Shown in pieces: positions 1-7,407 of a stretch of DNA of 7,407 nt. The position numbers and the translations under genes were made by a program. The stretch is from Candidatus Hydrogenedentota bacterium. GTDB taxonomy: Bacteria > UBA8481 > J006. The notes under the pieces were generated by a model, which saw only the letters and a list, made by a program, of their open reading frames with translations, did not search any database and was not told the DNA's origin. Every line of letters starts with the position of its first letter. The stretch's first letter is position 1. The stretch covers positions 1 through 7,407 of the forward strand of contig RFFU01000025.1 of assembly GCA_003697085.1 (NCBI GenBank), given 5' to 3'.

Positions 1-1770
1 ACGGGCATCGATCCGAAAACGGGGCAAAAGACCTGGGGATATGTCATCAAGGGGCAGGATCCCGTCTTTCAATTCATGGGATTTCTCTATCAGAACGGCG
101 GCGAGTTCTACAACGAAGAAGAGACGGAAGCGACCTTCAATTCGCGCGAAGGGAAAGAAGCTTTGAGGTTCCTCGTCGATCTCCATCGCGTCCATAACGT
201 CTCCGGGCCGGAGACGATGAACAACTGGCTTTGGAATACCTTCGGGCCATTCTTGAGTCCGAAGAACAAGTATGCGATATACGAAACGGTCCCGGGAATG
301 ATCAAGGCCGGGGCCATCGATCGGGCGGGGAGAATCGGAGTTTGCACGCTTCCGAAGCGGAAGCGGCGCGGGGGACTGATGGGGGGCTCGTTTCTGGCGA
401 TCAATAAGAAGAGTTTGCCGGAAAAGAAGGAAGCCGCCTTCCAATTGATCAAATTCCTGGGCCAACCCCAGTGTCAGAAGTGGCTTGTCAAGCAGACGGC
501 GAGTTTGAGTCCGCGGATCGATCTTTGGGATTGGGATTATCTCAAGGATCACCCGGAATGGAAGGTGGGGATGAAACAGTTCGAATCGAGTTTCCCGACC
601 CCGAGCGCCGTTTGGGGACGGACGTACAATATCCTCGGCGAATACATTCAGAATGCGTTGGTAGGGGATATGACGCCGGAGGAAGCGTTGGATCAGGCCG
701 CCAAGGAGGTGAATCGCCTTCTGGAGGCGAACACGGCCGCGACACGTCGGGATCCCGCGGAAGTCAAACATGAAATATCAGTTCTCAATCTGATGTTTTG
801 GGCTGTGATTACGATAATGATCGTCTTTCTCGTGATTTGGGGTTGGGTGTCACATCGGAAAAGAAACGTGCGGTCGGCGCTGATAAGAGAACTGAAGACA
901 GCGCGTCCGTGGTTTGTGTTCCTTTCGCCCGTGTTGCTCTTCTTGGCCGTGTTTCTTGTTTATCCTCTGTTGGATTCATTGCGCCTGAGTTTCTTGGCCT
1001 TCGACGGCATCAACCCGTTGGCGGTTATGGGCTTCAAAAACTATACCTTTGTCCTCCAAAACGCCAAATTTTGGAATGCGGTTTGGAATACGATCTATCT
1101 CGCCCTCGGTGGGCTCCTGATTATGATTCCCCTGGCGGTGGTTTTGGCGGTTTTGATCAACGAAAAGGTGATGGGAAAAACCTTCTTCAAGGTCGTTTAC
1201 TTTATGCCGGTGATTACTTCTTATGTGGCAATATCGATTGTTTGGCAGTTGATCTTGAATCCGGGTGAGACGGGAATACTCAACAATGCCTTGAGCGTTC
1301 TCGGAATTGCGCCTCTGGGGTGGTTGAGCGATCCCTCGCTGTCGAAACCGGCCATCATCATTATGGACACGTGGCGTTGGTTGGGTTTCGTGACGATGAT
1401 TATGCTGGCGGGGCTCCAGGGGATTCCGGAGTCGCTTTACGAGGCGGCGCGAATCGACGGCGCGGGCGCCGTCCAACGTTTTTTTCACGTAACGCTTCCT
1501 CTTTTGAAACCGGCCATTACCTTTGTCGTCTTGACCCATTGGATCAGCGCTCTCCAGGCCTTCGATCAAATCTACGTGCTGGGAGGGGTTCGAGGAGGAA
1601 TTCAACGATCGTTCCAGACGATCGTATCCTATCTTTACGAGGTGGGTTTCGTCGATCAGCATTTCGGGGTCGCATCCGCTATCGCGTACATACTCTTTTT
1701 TATCATTGGTGTGATTACCGCGATCAACGCCTTTTGGTTGAAACCGCATAAAGGAGTGGAGGAACGGTGA
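1..1770 (+). CDS. Solute-binding protein fused to MalF-type ABC sugar permease (5' partial)
   Basis: The frame is open from base 1, so the ATG at 76 is internal and the true start lies upstream; 589 residues are visible. Codons 1 to about 250 match the C-terminal lobe of family 1 sugar-binding proteins: a GGSFLAINK stretch (codons 128-136), then an AAFQLIKFLGQPQCQKWL helix, and near the end GDMTPEEALDQAAKEVNRLL. One hydrophobic helix (nt 775-846) and a basic stretch (SHRKRN) follow. A complete six-helix MalF-type permease comes next, with helices at about nt 910-975, 1069-1156, 1183-1258, 1351-1425, 1498-1585 and 1666-1737. The cytoplasmic EAA loop, which contacts the ATPase, is at nt 1441-1500 (EAARIDGAG...LP). 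The likely role is capture and import of a sugar or oligosaccharide across the inner membrane; the substrate is unknown. The SBP is normally a separate lipoprotein or periplasmic protein, so the fusion is the odd feature. There is no stop or frame break at the junction. Confidence 0.93.
   Translation, partial: TGIDPKTGQKTWGYVIKGQDPVFQFMGFLYQNGGEFYNEEETEATFNSREGKEALRFLVDLHRVHNVSGPETMNNWLWNTFGPFLSPKNKYAIYETVPGMIKAGAIDRAGRIGVCTLPKRKRRGGLMGGSFLAINKKSLPEKKEAAFQLIKFLGQPQCQKWLVKQTASLSPRIDLWDWDYLKDHPEWKVGMKQFESSFPTPSAVWGRTYNILGEYIQNALVGDMTPEEALDQAAKEVNRLLEANTAATRRDPAEVKHEISVLNLMFWAVITIMIVFLVIWGWVSHRKRNVRSALIRELKTARPWFVFLSPVLLFLAVFLVYPLLDSLRLSFLAFDGINPLAVMGFKNYTFVLQNAKFWNAVWNTIYLALGGLLIMIPLAVVLAVLINEKVMGKTFFKVVYFMPVITSYVAISIVWQLILNPGETGILNNALSVLGIAPLGWLSDPSLSKPAIIIMDTWRWLGFVTMIMLAGLQGIPESLYEAARIDGAGAVQRFFHVTLPLLKPAITFVVLTHWISALQAFDQIYVLGGVRGGIQRSFQTIVSYLYEVGFVDQHFGVASAIAYILFFIIGVITAINAFWLKPHKGVEER
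775..909 (+). other. Tether helix and cytoplasmic linker joining SBP to permease
   Basis: This segment encodes a roughly 24-residue hydrophobic helix (ISVLNLMFWAVITIMIVFLV and a few more residues). A positively charged stretch of about 20 residues (SHRKRN...RELKTAR) follows, before the first permease helix at nt 910. By the positive-inside rule, the SBP would be periplasmic and the linker cytoplasmic. The first canonical permease helix would then keep its usual in-to-out direction. The extra helix thus solves the topological problem of fusing a periplasmic protein to a permease whose N terminus is cytoplasmic. The topology is inferred from hydrophobicity and charge only. Confidence 0.75.
1751..1762 (+). 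promoter_or_regulatory. Ribosome binding site for the MalG-type gene
   Basis: AAGGAG (1751-1756) and GGAGG (1758-1762) lie just upstream of the GTG at 1767. The second has only four bases of spacing and the first ten. This supports the GTG start inside the end of the previous gene. The GTGA overlap (start 1767-1769, stop 1768-1770) points to translational coupling of the two permease subunits. Confidence 0.8.
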
Positions 1771-3089
1771 ACGAAGAGGGAGAACTTCACAAACTGGAAA
1801 AGAAAATTCGTTCCATCGCCCTGCACCTTCTCCTTCTGCTTGGGGCCGCGACGATGTTGGTGCCGTTCTGGTGGATGGTTTCGACCTCGATGACCGAGAA
1901 TGCGAATTCGGAGCTGAGCAATCCGCCGCGCTGGACGCCGTGGAGGAGCGGCAATCGCGCGTTGGCGAGTGCTTCCGGAGCCACGGTGAAAGTCCTCGGG
2001 AAGAAGGGAGGAGAGACCGTGGTAGCCCTTCTGAATGACGGTCGTCGCGATGTCGCTTGGGCGACCCGGCGACTGCAACCCGGAGAAACGGAAGTCCTGC
2101 TTTTGGATGTCGGGATCTCCACGATGTTCGACCGTGTGGAAATCCTCTTTCCCGGGAATGCCGAAAAACTTCCGAAGGTGGCGTTGGATTTTTGTGTGGA
2201 GAAAGGAAAGTGGGATACGACGGCCCGCATCGTTGCGTTGCCGAGGGAGCTGCGGGAGAAGAGAGGGGTATTTCTTCTCGCTCCGCGCGTGCGCGCTCGA
2301 TTCATCAAAATGATTCTCGAGAATCCAGGGGCTTCTCCCGCGCGGTTTTTCTTGGCGGAAATTCGGGCTCACGAGCAACTGAAACCGACGCTGGCGAACT
2401 ACAAGGAAGTTTTGAAAGTTACGGAACGCGACAAGGAGATTTACGGCTTTCTTGGAAGATTTGGGCGTTACTACGCGAATTCGGTTTTCGTGGCCGGTCT
2501 TCTGACGCTGACGAATCTCTTTTTCTGTTCTCTGGCGGGCTATGCCTTCGCGAAGGGACGGTTTCTTGGGCGCGAATTCCTTTTCTATGGAGTATTGGCG
2601 ACGATGATGGTGCCGGGGCAGGTCACGATGATTCCGGTTTACAAGTTGATGACAAACTGGAAACTTTTGGATTCTCTCTGGGCGCTCATCCTGCCGGGAT
2701 TGACGGGAGCCTACGGCGTCTTTCTTTGTACACAGTTCATCCGCGCGCTTCCCGATTCCTTGATGGAAGCGGCTCGCATGGATGGATGCAGTGAATGGCG
2801 GGTGTATTGGGAGGTGATTGTTCCGCTGTCAAAACCGGTCCTGGCGACGTTGGGAATTCTCACGTTCCTCTTTCAGTTCAACAGTTTCCTCTGGCCGTTG
2901 ATCATGATCAATGACGAAAAATGGAAGACGTTGCCGTTGGGGCTGGCGACGTATCGCCAGCAATATACGGCGGAATGGGGGAATATGATGGCTGCTGCCG
3001 CGATCTCGATCATTCCGATTCTTATTGTGTTCATCGTGCTTCAGAAATACGTTATCAAAAGCATGGCTCATGCGGGTATGAAAGAATAG
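1767..3089 (+). CDS. MalG-type ABC sugar permease with F5/8 type C-like periplasmic insert
   Basis: A 440-residue inner-membrane permease, the partner of the MalF-type subunit encoded just upstream. The start is a GTG overlapping the previous stop by 4 bases. Helix 1 spans about residues 16-38 and ends in [11 protein letters not shown], typical of MalG N termini. The other five helices lie near 238-262, 272-295, 302-327, 354-380 and 408-432. The EAA loop that docks on the ATPase is at 334-353 ([11 protein letters not shown]...IVP). The C terminus [10 protein letters not shown] is typical of the family. CUT1 MalG-type permeases are usually about 270-300 residues; the excess is one block, about residues 58-204, between helices 1 and 2. 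After it the normal sequence resumes with [12 protein letters not shown], the usual loop motif. The surrounding frame is unbroken and the insert has no obviously different base composition. Substrate unknown; a sugar or glycoside is likely from the family. Confidence 0.93.
1938..2378 (+). other. F5/8 type C (discoidin/CBM32-like) domain inserted in the MalG first periplasmic loop
   Basis: Residues about 58-204 of the MalG-type protein are absent from ordinary MalG. They read like a galactose-binding-like beta sandwich. [14 protein letters not shown] (residues 87-100) matches the family's L-x-DG-x-x-x-x-x-W pattern. [21 protein letters not shown] (110-130) matches the 'q-v-D-l-G ... v-d-r-V-x-i-x-x-P-g' strand pair. 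[13 protein letters not shown]...[10 protein letters not shown] (176-203) matches the closing 'aRyvrl-i ... laEi-vy' strand. Domains of this fold often bind glycans. No binding residues can be assigned here, so glycan binding is inference. The position between helices 1 and 2 places it in the periplasm. Confidence 0.7.
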
Positions 3090-3111: not shown

Positions 3112-4221
3112 TTGGGGTCGGTTGTTCTGAAAAATATCAATAAAGTCTATGAAGGGGGAGTGCAGGCGGTCAAGGACTTCAATCTGGAGATAGAAGATCG
3201 CGAGTTTATTGTTCTCGTCGGGCCGTCGGGTTGCGGAAAATCGACGACGTTGAGGATGGTCGCGGGGCTCGAAGAAATCTCATCGGGGGAGTTGTACATC
3301 GATGGGAAACTCTGCAATCACGTTCCCCCCCAGGATCGCAACATCGCGATGGTTTTTCAGAATTACGCGTTGTATCCGCACAAGACGGTCTATGACAATA
3401 TGGCTTTCGGCCTGAAGATGCGGAAATTTGATCGGGATGAGATCGATAAACGGGTGAAACAGGCGGCTGATATGTTGGGCCTGCGCCATGTTCTTGATCG
3501 AAAGCCCGCGGCGTTGTCCGGGGGGCAGAGGCAGAGAGTCGCCGTGGGGCGGGCGATCGTTCGTCAACCGAGCGTCTTTCTCTTCGACGAGCCCCTTTCG
3601 AACCTGGACGCCAAACTTCGTTCCCAGATGCGGACGGAATTATCGAAACTGCATACGCGCCTTCAAACGACGATGATCTATGTGACCCACGATCAATTGG
3701 AAGCGATGACCCTGGCGGATCGAATCGTCGTGCTCAAGGATGGGATAACCCAACAGGTGGGAACCCCGCTCGAAATCTACGAAAATCCGGCCACGATCTT
3801 TGTCGCCGGATTCATCGGCTCTCCTCCGATGAATTTCGTTCGCGGGCGAGTTGAGACGGCGGGAGAAGCGGTTCGTTTCAAAACTTCGGGGATTGATGTT
3901 CGTTTTACTCCTGACAAGGCGAAGAAACTTCAAGAGGAAGGTTATGTCGGCAAGGAAGTGATCTTCGGAATTCGGCCGCAAGAAATTCATGACCGTATCT
4001 TTTTCCCCGAAGCGTCGGAAGATCACGTCGTGCGGGGGATCATCGATGTCGTGGAACCGGTCGGTTCGGAGACCTTTTTGCAAGTCTCGGTCGGAGAGAA
4101 CTTGATTATGGCCAGAATGTCCGCCTCGGAAAAATATGTTTTGGAACGAGAGTTGGAACTGGTCTTCAATATGGATCGTGTTCACGTATTCGACATTTCC
4201 ACGGAAAGGGCGGTTTTCTGA
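3112..4221 (+). CDS. Sugar ABC transporter ATPase, MalK/UgpC/MsmK type
   Basis: A 369-residue cytoplasmic ATPase that powers the importer encoded upstream; a dimer would dock on the EAA loops of the two permeases. All nucleotide-binding motifs are present: Walker [10 protein letters not shown] (37-45), Q-loop glutamine (Q83 in [10 protein letters not shown]), signature [14 protein letters not shown] (135-148), Walker B VFLFDE (155-160, catalytic E160), D-loop SNLD (163-166) and switch histidine H193 in [16 protein letters not shown]-terminal TOBE/OB-type region from about residue 240 contains [10 protein letters not shown]. It makes the protein the full length usual for MalK-like ATPases (about 360-370), and in the family it can serve regulation. 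The start is TTG with a good ribosome binding site, 22 bp after the MalG-type gene. Which of MalK, UgpC or MsmK it corresponds to cannot be decided, since these ATPases are often shared between importers. Confidence 0.96.
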
Positions 4222-4278: not shown

Positions 4279-5727
4279 ATGTTTGATTTTTCGACGGAGA
4301 CCCTCCGTTTCCGATCAAATCTAACCCCTCTTGTCGGTGGGACCATTACGATCTCGCTTATGCTTCTTCTCGGCGTGTACGTGCTCAAGAACCCCACCGA
4401 CACTCTGATGGTCCTTCCGATTTTCCCCGCCCTGGTGGTTCTTGGAACGACTCTCAACGGAGCGGCGATCGGCTGGGGCGCGCTCCTCCTGGGCACACTC
4501 CCCTTCCTTTATCGCTCTTTCGGGGATTGGCACATCGGTCTCGTTGGCGGTGTGATTGTTCTGGAGATGTACATCGGGCTGAAGGGGGCCCAATTCTTGA
4601 GCGAAATGGTACGAAGACGTCATCGGGACCGTGTATTGGAGAGAAATGCGCTTTCCGAGGAAATAAATCTTTTGAGAGAAGCCGGAGAAAAAGAGGAGAG
4701 TCGAGTGCAGGCTCTGGAGGAAAAAGGGAGGCGGTTTCGGAGACTCGGAGAGATCGCCGGACGTTTGGGAGAGAGTTTGGAGGAACAAGAGGTATGCCGG
4801 CGGATCGCGGACGACACAGGACGGTTGTTTGCGGGAAAGTTCGTGGCGCTTTTTATGAAGAAAAGAGGCCGGTTTCTTCTACAGGCGACCGCGGGTGTTC
4901 CTTTGGAGAATACCGAGCCCGAGGGTCTGGCGGAAGATGAATTCAACCAGATCGTTTTGCGGACGGGGGTCGGAGTGACGGTGGCGGATGTTCGGAGGGA
5001 TTTTCGGTTCCGGGCGGAGGGGAAAAGGGGTTTCCTTTCATTGGTCGCCGCTCCCGTGATATGTGAAGGGGCCGTTGAGGGGGTTCTTCGCGTCCACGGA
5101 ATAAAACCGGATGCTTTTCAAACCGACGATCTCCGACTGGTCACGCACATCGCTCAACTTGGTTCGGTCGCGATTCAAAACGCTAGGCTCTTTTCGAAGA
5201 CCGAGGAGATGGCGATGATTGATGGATTGACGAAGCTGGCGAAACGGTGGTACTTCAACGACCGTTTTCAGGACGAATGCCAAAGGGCGTTGCGATATCG
5301 TGGAAAAATCAGTCTTCTGATTACGGATATCGATAAATTCAAGAGTCTGAATGATAATTACGGCCATCTCTTCGGGGATAAAGTTTTGGCGACCGTGGCG
5401 GCGGTGGTGAAAGAAGAGCTGAGAGCGATCGATATCGCCGGTCGTTGGGGAGGGGAAGAGTTTGCGATCGTTCTTCCCAATATGGACCGTCGCGGGGCTT
5501 GTGAGGCGGCGGAACGAATACGAGGAAAAGTCGAACGGGAGGTTGTAAGGAGAGTGGCAGGCGATAAGCCGGTGACGGTGAGCATCGGCGTGGCGACGTT
5601 TCCCGATGATATCAGGAGAACGGATCGACTATTTGATGCGGCGGATGCTGCTCTTTACAAGGCAAAAGCCGAAGGGAGAAATCGCGTCGTCGTCAGCGGG
5701 GAGGACCCGTCCCGCGGAAAGAGATAA
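4279..5727 (+). CDS. Membrane-anchored GAF-GGDEF diguanylate cyclase
   Basis: A 482-residue protein predicted to make the second messenger cyclic di-GMP from two GTP. Residues 18-101 are hydrophobic, with about four membrane helices. Residues about 105-155 are highly charged and look like a coiled coil. A GAF domain spans about 156-305; its end (FLSLVAAPVICEGAVEGVLRV, then AIQNARLF) is typical of the family. The GGDEF domain runs from DGLTKL (315-320) to about 473. Compared with PleD, the metal ligand D350, guanine-contacting N358 and D367, and the GGEEF loop (391-395) are all present. The inhibitory I-site RAID (382-385) lies five residues before GGEEF, as in feedback-inhibited enzymes. The ATG has only a weak GAAG site upstream, and an in-frame TGA at 4273 rules out an earlier start. 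The usual N-R-R after DxLTxL is replaced by AKRWYF. The GAF ligand is unknown. Confidence 0.93.
   Translation: MFDFSTETLRFRSNLTPLVGGTITISLMLLLGVYVLKNPTDTLMVLPIFPALVVLGTTLNGAAIGWGALLLGTLPFLYRSFGDWHIGLVGGVIVLEMYIGLKGAQFLSEMVRRRHRDRVLERNALSEEINLLREAGEKEESRVQALEEKGRRFRRLGEIAGRLGESLEEQEVCRRIADDTGRLFAGKFVALFMKKRGRFLLQATAGVPLENTEPEGLAEDEFNQIVLRTGVGVTVADVRRDFRFRAEGKRGFLSLVAAPVICEGAVEGVLRVHGIKPDAFQTDDLRLVTHIAQLGSVAIQNARLFSKTEEMAMIDGLTKLAKRWYFNDRFQDECQRALRYRGKISLLITDIDKFKSLNDNYGHLFGDKVLATVAAVVKEELRAIDIAGRWGGEEFAIVLPNMDRRGACEAAERIRGKVEREVVRRVAGDKPVTVSIGVATFPDDIRRTDRLFDAADAALYKAKAEGRNRVVVSGEDPSRGKR
5716..5723 (+). promoter_or_regulatory. Probable ribosome binding site for the second cyclase gene
   Basis: GGAAAGAG lies inside the last codons of the preceding gene, six bases before the ATG at 5730. 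It is a moderate purine-rich match. With a 2-bp gap between genes, it suggests that both cyclases are translated from one mRNA. Confidence 0.5.
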
Positions 5728-5729
5728 CG

Positions 5730-7142
5730 ATGAATACGGAAACGAAAGGAATGAAACGCTCGGCGTTTCTTTGGCTGATTGTGCTGGGAGGAGGAGCGAC
5801 GGTGTTGGCTCGCCATCACGGGACCTTCCCGCTCGCGATCGCCTTGCTGGTGATGTTACCGCTGATTCTTCTCCTGGAAGGCTTTCGATGTCGGGAGAAC
5901 GAGGCGGCCGCGTTTGCCGTCATCTCGTTTCTTTTCCTGGGGGCGACGTTTTTCGTCGGGTTCAAGAAACAGTTCTTTACCTCGGAAACGTTTCTCGGTA
6001 CGGCGGTAACCCTGTTTTTACTCGCCCTCTCCGCTTTTCTTCCCGTGTTCCTTTTTCGAGTTCGCGCGGAAAGATTGAGTCGAGATCTTCACGAAAGAAG
6101 TATGAGTGAGCGCAAGCGGGAGAGGGACCGTTTGAAGGAGAGGCGGACGAAACTCCAGGAACGGATCCGCGTGCTTCAGCAGGAGACGGAGTTCATACAC
6201 AATTCCTTCGAAATGATGAAGGCGATCGTGAGTAGTTTGGAGCCGAGCGCATTGTGGGAGGCCGTGGCGGAAGGGCCGGGGCGCGTCTGGGAAGTGGAGG
6301 AAACGCGTCTCTTCATCGAAGGGGTGAAGGGAGAAGAGTGGAGGGAAATTGTCGCTCGCCGCGGCTCGCGAAAACAGAGCGTGAAGCTAGGAACAGTAAA
6401 GGAGATTCCAAACGAAGGGGATTCCCTGGAAGACGGAGAAATCCGTTTGGAAATGAAAGGGGAAGGGCGGAAGTCCGGAGAAGTGATGTGCGCCTTTCGA
6501 TATCGCAAGGAATCGAAGGCCGTCTTGATTCTTTCGGGAATCTCGGAAGACGAGATGATGCCGCGAAGCAGTTTCGAGGAAAAACTCTCATTGTTGATCC
6601 GCGAAATAGCTCTTGGAATTCGAAAGGCGGAACTTTATCTAAAGATTCAGGAATTGGCGATCCGAGACGCTCTTACGAATCTTTACGTTCCGTGGTATTT
6701 CAAACAGCGGCTGGACGAGGAGTGCAAGAGGGCAACACTCTACGAGAGGGAAGTGCCTCTGATAATGATCGATATCGACCACTTTAAGGGCGTGAACGAT
6801 ACGTATGGCCACTCAACGGGCGACGAGGTTTTGAAGAAGGTTGCCGAAATTATTCACGCCAGTCTTCGGGAAGTGGATTTTGTCTCACGTTACGGCGGGG
6901 AGGAATTTGCGGTGATTTTACCGGAGATCGATTTCGAGACGGCGATGATGATTGCGGAACGGCTGCGGAGTTCGGTGGCGCAATATGACCGGTTTCCGAC
7001 GGGTCGGGTGACAATCAGCGTTGGAGTTGCGGCGTTTCCTCGACACGCGGATTCTTCTGAACACCTGATTTCCGCAGCCGACGCGGCGCTTTACGAGGCA
7101 AAGAAGACCGGGCGCAATCGCGTCTGCAGCGCAGTACCGTAA
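5730..7142 (+). CDS. Membrane-anchored GGDEF diguanylate cyclase with divergent GAF-like region
   Basis: A 470-residue predicted diguanylate cyclase, starting 2 bp after a gene of the same layout. Four hydrophobic helices lie near residues 12-27, 33-51, 58-78 and 87-110. A very basic and acidic coiled-coil stretch follows (about 112-155, rich in RxxRL and KxRR). Residues about 160-300 sit where the first cyclase has its GAF domain and end similarly (LLIREIALGIRKAELYLKIQ). They lack the clear GAF core motifs, so the domain is diverged or replaced. The GGDEF domain runs from DALTNL (313-318) to the end. D348, N356, D365 and GGEEF (389-393) are intact, as is an I-site REVD (380-383), so activity and product inhibition are expected. 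The DxLTxLxNRR signature is altered to LYVPWYF. The two proteins look like diverged paralogs; the membrane parts share layout rather than obvious sequence. The sensed signal is unknown. Confidence 0.92.
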   Translation: MNTETKGMKRSAFLWLIVLGGGATVLARHHGTFPLAIALLVMLPLILLLEGFRCRENEAAAFAVISFLFLGATFFVGFKKQFFTSETFLGTAVTLFLLALSAFLPVFLFRVRAERLSRDLHERSMSERKRERDRLKERRTKLQERIRVLQQETEFIHNSFEMMKAIVSSLEPSALWEAVAEGPGRVWEVEETRLFIEGVKGEEWREIVARRGSRKQSVKLGTVKEIPNEGDSLEDGEIRLEMKGEGRKSGEVMCAFRYRKESKAVLILSGISEDEMMPRSSFEEKLSLLIREIALGIRKAELYLKIQELAIRDALTNLYVPWYFKQRLDEECKRATLYEREVPLIMIDIDHFKGVNDTYGHSTGDEVLKKVAEIIHASLREVDFVSRYGGEEFAVILPEIDFETAMMIAERLRSSVAQYDRFPTGRVTISVGVAAFPRHADSSEHLISAADAALYEAKKTGRNRVCSAVP

Positions 7143-7178: not shown

Positions 7179-7407
7179 TTATTTTACAACCATGATTTTT
7201 TCCAGGAGTCGTTCGCCTGAACCCGACGTAATCACGGCGACATAGACCCCGGATGCTAGGGGAACCCCTTCGTCGTTCGTGACATCCCAGTGGTATCGGC
7301 TTTCGTTGTCACTCTTGGAGAAGGTCGCTACCTTCCTTCCCGCGACGTTGTAGATCACGATGTCCACGCTTCCCGTGAGCCCGTCGAAGATGATTCCGCT
7401 CTTCGGA
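7179..7407 (-). CDS. C-terminal Ig-like/type IX-sorting-like tail of a secreted protein (5' partial)
   Basis: The minus-strand frame is open at the window edge and ends with TAA at 7181-7179, showing 75 residues; the GTG at 7367 is internal. The tail has the pattern of FlgD Ig-like or type IX secretion (Por) C-terminal domains: GLTGSVDIVIYNVAGRKVA, then WDVTNDEGVPLASGVYVAVI, and a final KIMVVK. Such tails cap large secreted or surface proteins such as hydrolases, adhesins or beta-propellers. In species with a type IX system they direct export and are cleaved. Whether this organism has that system cannot be seen. The body of the protein, and therefore its function, lies beyond the right edge. 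It converges on the second cyclase gene with only 36 bases between stops, in which I see no strong terminator. Confidence 0.8.
   Translation of the reverse strand, partial: PKSGIIFDGLTGSVDIVIYNVAGRKVATFSKSDNESRYHWDVTNDEGVPLASGVYVAVITSGSGERLLEKIMVVK

Follow-up and report, generated by a model that had tools for sequence, protein, structure and literature searches.

Does a MalG-type permease of an ABC sugar importer carry, in the loop that faces the solute-binding protein, a glycan-binding-type domain of its own? Substrate specificity in these importers is thought to come mainly from the binding protein, which in MalFGK2-E docks on the outer face where the first periplasmic loop of MalG lies. 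The original prediction placed a discoidin-like (F5/8 type C) domain in this loop of the permease encoded here. That placement is confirmed, the insertion by alignment with relatives, and the fold is supported by a sequence profile and a structural model.

The permease gene and the position of the insertion

The window, which is the whole 7,407-nucleotide stretch that was analyzed, forms the start of contig C55 in a 3.2-Mb assembly of 145 contigs (Table 1). By domain content and conserved motifs, its second open reading frame is a MalG-type ABC importer permease. A Pfam scan places BPD_transp_1 (PF00528) at residues 256–433 (84.9 bits against a cut-off of 26.4; E 7e-24), the EAA-DG motif is present with A335, D339, and G340 invariant, and the nearest NCBIfam models are UgpE, GlcU, and MalG, every one of them below its cut-off. 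The permease gene is flanked by a binding protein–MalF fusion and a MalK-type ATPase, with the partner genes of the importer all lying alongside. In the fusion product, Pfam recognizes SBP_bac_8 (residues 28–172, E 4.8e-6) and BPD_transp_1 (residues 376–572, E 1e-16).

Several features of the neighborhood are recorded here. The solute-binding protein and the MalF permease form a single polypeptide with a transmembrane segment as the joint, and a fusion of similar make seems to be present on another contig of the same genome (C91; L002). The ATPase gene is followed, in the same orientation, by tandem genes for two GGDEF proteins (4279–5727 and 5730–7142), both with hydrophobic N-termini and the first with a GAF domain as well. 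On the minus strand, at 7180–7407, a protein C-terminus truncated at the window edge looks like a FlgD-like/secretion-sorting tail (VDIVIYNVAGRKVATF...GVYVAVITSGSGERLLEKIMVVK).

In an alignment with relatives of 35–45% identity, PPRWTP and LANYKEV of the permease lie about 145 residues further apart than the corresponding sites of most relatives, which are separated by about 6, bearing out the earlier statement that a stretch of this length separates helix 1 from LANYKEVL. The closest permeases found run from ...PPxWLP to ...NYxE without the insert. The insertion is clean and in-frame, following TM1 and preceding the conserved loop motif; the reading frame is open throughout, and the GC3 of the block is 0.64 compared to 0.65 in the remainder of the permease gene. 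On this alignment, the block is located in the first periplasmic loop of the predicted permease.

Table 1. Coordinates in the window of the importer genes and of the segments of the permease, followed by the loci with a CBM48-type insert.
Feature	Position or locus	Strand	Basis or remark
Solute-binding protein fused to MalF-type permease	1..1770	+	5' end cut by contig edge
MalG-type ABC permease with inserted domain, 440 aa	1767..3089	+	GTG start; ORF list, Pfam, AlphaFold
TM1 of permease, residues ~17–38	1815..1880	+	Hydrophobic stretch inside AlphaFold helix 4–41
Insert, residues ~59–203, predicted to be discoidin-like (F5/8 type C / CBM32-like)	1941..2375	+	Alignment, profile, model
Counterpart of F5/8C landmark xDGxxxTxW	2031..2060	+	D, G, and W invariant alongside seven F5/8C domains
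MalG loop resumes in canonical form	2376..2414	+	Alignment with MalG relatives
MalK/UgpC-type ATPase with OB_MalK/TOBE domains	3112..4221	+	ABC_tran 9.8e-33, OB_MalK 4.9e-14 (Pfam)
Clear CBM48/AMPK1_CBM domain in MalG loop	L040, L258, L230		Starch/glycogen-binding type

Resemblance of the block to F5/8C domains

Pfam (PF00754, PF22633) returned no match to the block up to an E value of 10, in a search whose HMMER filters discard most weak matches, and an NCBIfam scan gave nothing useful. An F5/8C profile was made from 24 domains picked by PF00754 in other genomes and in the source genome. This profile matches residues ~84–203 of the permease (window 2016–2375) with 21.3 bits, compared to at most 3.8 bits for 300 shuffled versions of the block and −2.4 bits for the reversed block. 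When 842 ORF frames, drawn from the window and the permease loci, were scored with it, only the permease (E 6.7e-5) and one true F5/8C protein encoded in the source genome reached significance. Profiles built from random halves of the training set scored the block at 4.5–21.4 bits, above its own 100 shuffles every time, with a narrow margin of 3–7 bits for some of them. True F5/8C training domains, left out in turn, scored 21.5–124 bits; the block thus stands at the low edge of this range and would therefore be a divergent member of the family.

Comparison by hhalign gave a probability of 69 (P 4.6e-5) against the 24-domain profile and weak probabilities of 3.4 for a thin profile made from 6 domains and 0.5 for one made from 4. 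Among PDB sequences, the CBM32 domain 5zu6 is colinear with the block but gives only a weak phmmer match (E 0.18). The top phmmer matches, C4HR1_4r chains 8ga9 and 8eox, are short and repeated and were judged to be chance.

Alongside F5/8C domains, the block aligns colinearly over nearly its full length, with DG...W, LDxG, and ARFIK...LAEI as shared landmarks and D91, G92, W98, and D114 among the landmark residues; the landmarks named earlier (LNDG...W, LDVG, and LAEIRAHE) are all present on reading the sequence. At the level of sequence, then, the resemblance of the block to F5/8C domains exceeds chance, and the predicted assignment, made through the purpose-built profile, is one to the discoidin superfamily and to no Pfam family. 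An F-type lectin (fucolectin) was considered and rejected by inspection, because the His...Arg fucose motif is absent and the only His of the block lies in the terminal AEIRAHE. Searches of genome_contigs, viral_contigs, the organism's own phylum, and about 450 genomes yielded no close relative of the block.

When the full-length permease was modeled by AlphaFold with 44 permease relatives, the pLDDT was mostly above 90 in the membrane part and about 40 in the block, a value that is uninformative because no row among the 44 permeases covers the block. Modeled alone with seven F5/8C domains, the block reached a pTM of 0.71 and a mean pLDDT of 74, being all beta except for one short helix and forming a galactose-binding-like sandwich; because its alignment companions were chosen as F5/8C domains, this model indicates compatibility with the fold rather than an independent discovery of it. 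Its best PDB matches are the lectinolysin lectin domain, a pneumococcal fucose-binding module, CBM32s, and F5/8C domains of fucosidases and sialidases (Foldseek E 3.5e-5; VIA-align Z 12.1, rmsd 2.6 Å over 122 residues). The structure prediction and Foldseek search proposed at the outset thus returned a sandwich whose best matches are discoidin folds, but with confidence only when F5/8C rows were in the alignment. Together, the controlled profile, the weak phmmer match to 5zu6, and the model support the original call of an F5/8C, galactose-binding-like fold. The block shares with CBM32 and F5/8C domains (PF00754, PF22633) a colinear sequence pattern and the predicted sandwich; it differs from them in being unreported by the Pfam models and in residing in a permease loop, rather than in a secreted enzyme or lectin.

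Other inserts in the MalG TM1–TM2 loop

A glycan-binding-type fold within MalG was originally described as an arrangement not recognized from elsewhere. The position of the insert does have precedent, as both published Thermotogales sequences and the survey of permease loci described below place inserts there; only the discoidin type was not met elsewhere in the survey. Between TM1 and TM2, Thermotogales MalG1 and MalG2 have a hydrophilic stretch, about 500 residues long, for which no relatives or function are known (BMC Evol Biol 2008, PMC2246101). Like the permease described here, they have a large domain at the same place in MalG; compared by description, the Thermotogales insert is about 500 residues long and without similarity to known proteins, whereas the insert here is about 145 residues long and discoidin-like. 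In the survey, the TM1–TM2 stretch measures about 540 residues in an Athalassotoga MalG and about 190 in an Auribacterota MalG, compared to about 35 in an ordinary MalG.

In three permeases, the same loop contains a recognized carbohydrate-binding-type domain scoring above the Pfam cut-off, AMPK1_CBM/CBM48 in G030 (E 2.2e-13) and G117 (5.6e-14) and CBM_48 in G327 (6.2e-12). These inserts share their loop with the block but are of the starch/glycogen type, whereas the block is discoidin-like. The literature searched, a coverage that mostly excludes subscription papers, describes no CBM48 domain in MalG, and more generally no discoidin domain or carbohydrate-binding module in this type of permease.

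The source genome itself encodes two further MalG proteins with inserts. That of the second (C70) has a counterpart in G001, in the same order, and the G001 insert has a weak match, under the cut-off, to a pullulanase X25 model (E 4e-4). In the third (C106; L058, G000:C106:119500-125500), the same loop contains about 500 inserted residues, segments of which resemble GH42 beta-galactosidases (28.6 bits versus a cut-off of 21); a shorter insert of similar appearance occurs in G005 (L051). In one family, a MalG frame of about 565–650 residues has a conserved insert in nearly all of 57 genomes. At L039 and L089–L117, the MalG-type permease of a genome family regularly has a TM1–TM2 insert of about 270 residues with no assigned family. 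The insert of the G040 family was considered as a discoidin domain and rejected: it is similar by eye (RIRRIILPIRGDASYHHLSLEVSV), yet scores only about 5 bits with the F5/8C profile. Searches gave no confident family for the inserts at L043/L231, L044/L239, L041/L240/L243, and L233/L234, and many of the remaining large frames surveyed turned out to be frame extensions and were rejected as loop inserts. Among the loci and genomes surveyed, no other MalG had an F5/8C domain in this loop.

F5/8C domains also occur beside the permease gene. The gene next after malG encodes an F5/8C-bearing protein in 6 of the 80 malG loci, and such domains therefore appear to travel with this transporter class. 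The proteins encoded directly downstream of malG at L128, L133, L137, L142, L187, and L196 are large and come from Burkholderiales, Rhodospirillales, Xanthomonas, Stenotrophomonas, and Eisenbacteria records.

Possible roles of the inserted domain

We favor, with a probability of about 0.5, a model in which the block is a divergent discoidin-family sandwich in the MalG loop that serves as a putative accessory sugar-binding module beside the MalF-tethered binding protein. The domain would lie on the periplasmic face, next to the docking site of the tethered protein, where it may hold the ends of oligosaccharides or polysaccharides as putative ligands. Glycan captured in this way would raise the local supply of substrate to the binding protein. 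This is the most economical reading because the domains recognized in this loop in other permeases belong to carbohydrate-binding types and an F5/8C gene neighbors malG in the loci counted above. The block probably binds sugar.

For many domains of the discoidin fold, the ligand is a protein or none is known. A second, less probable but serious explanation is that the sandwich is a protein–protein element, capping or orienting the fused binding protein without binding sugar. By MalG topology, the loop adjoins the face on which the binding protein docks, and E. coli MalF P2, which contacts the binding protein, is likewise an accessory periplasmic domain of a maltose-type permease. P2 is situated between TM3 and TM4 of MalF, however, whereas the block is in MalG between TM1 and TM2 and belongs to another fold family. 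MalF-P2 reportedly interacts with MalE throughout the cycle, according to the title of a paper (Daus 2009) cited in PMC3328499. At L044, L047, and L239, the same loop carries long helical inserts that show nothing indicative of sugar binding, as would also suit a docking cap; on the other hand, a tethered binding protein has less need of docking help, and the domains recognized above cut-off in this loop elsewhere are mostly carbohydrate-binding modules.

It is unlikely that the domain instead recruits a partner, for example a glycan of the cell envelope or an extracytoplasmic glycoside hydrolase, and thereby brings the importer close to where sugar is released. Discoidin folds do serve as adhesion modules, and F5/8C-bearing proteins are encoded beside malG in several genomes, but a Pfam scan found no hydrolase gene in the 7.4-kb contig, the upstream side of which is cut off. 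Finally, that the block is an unrelated or decaying loop with an incidental resemblance, as the missing Pfam and NCBIfam matches, the thin-profile hhalign values, and the poor fold obtained without F5/8C relatives (pLDDT ~40) might suggest, is highly improbable in light of the shuffle, reversed-block, 842-frame, and half-set controls, the near full-length colinear landmarks, the intact reading frame, and a GC3 like that of its neighbors.

The insertion described here is of interest chiefly as part of a broader pattern, in which the MalG TM1–TM2 loop receives domains of various kinds. Tentatively, this loop may be a general acceptor site into which glycan-binding domains have been inserted repeatedly and independently, creating a second site of substrate capture in MalG-type permeases. 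The domains so inserted would include the discoidin domain of the present permease, CBM48 in three genomes, and perhaps others. Permeases with a glycan-binding-type domain of their own beside the binding protein suggest that the membrane subunit captures substrate too, and would provide the large, unexplained loops of Thermotogales MalG with a function that can be tested.
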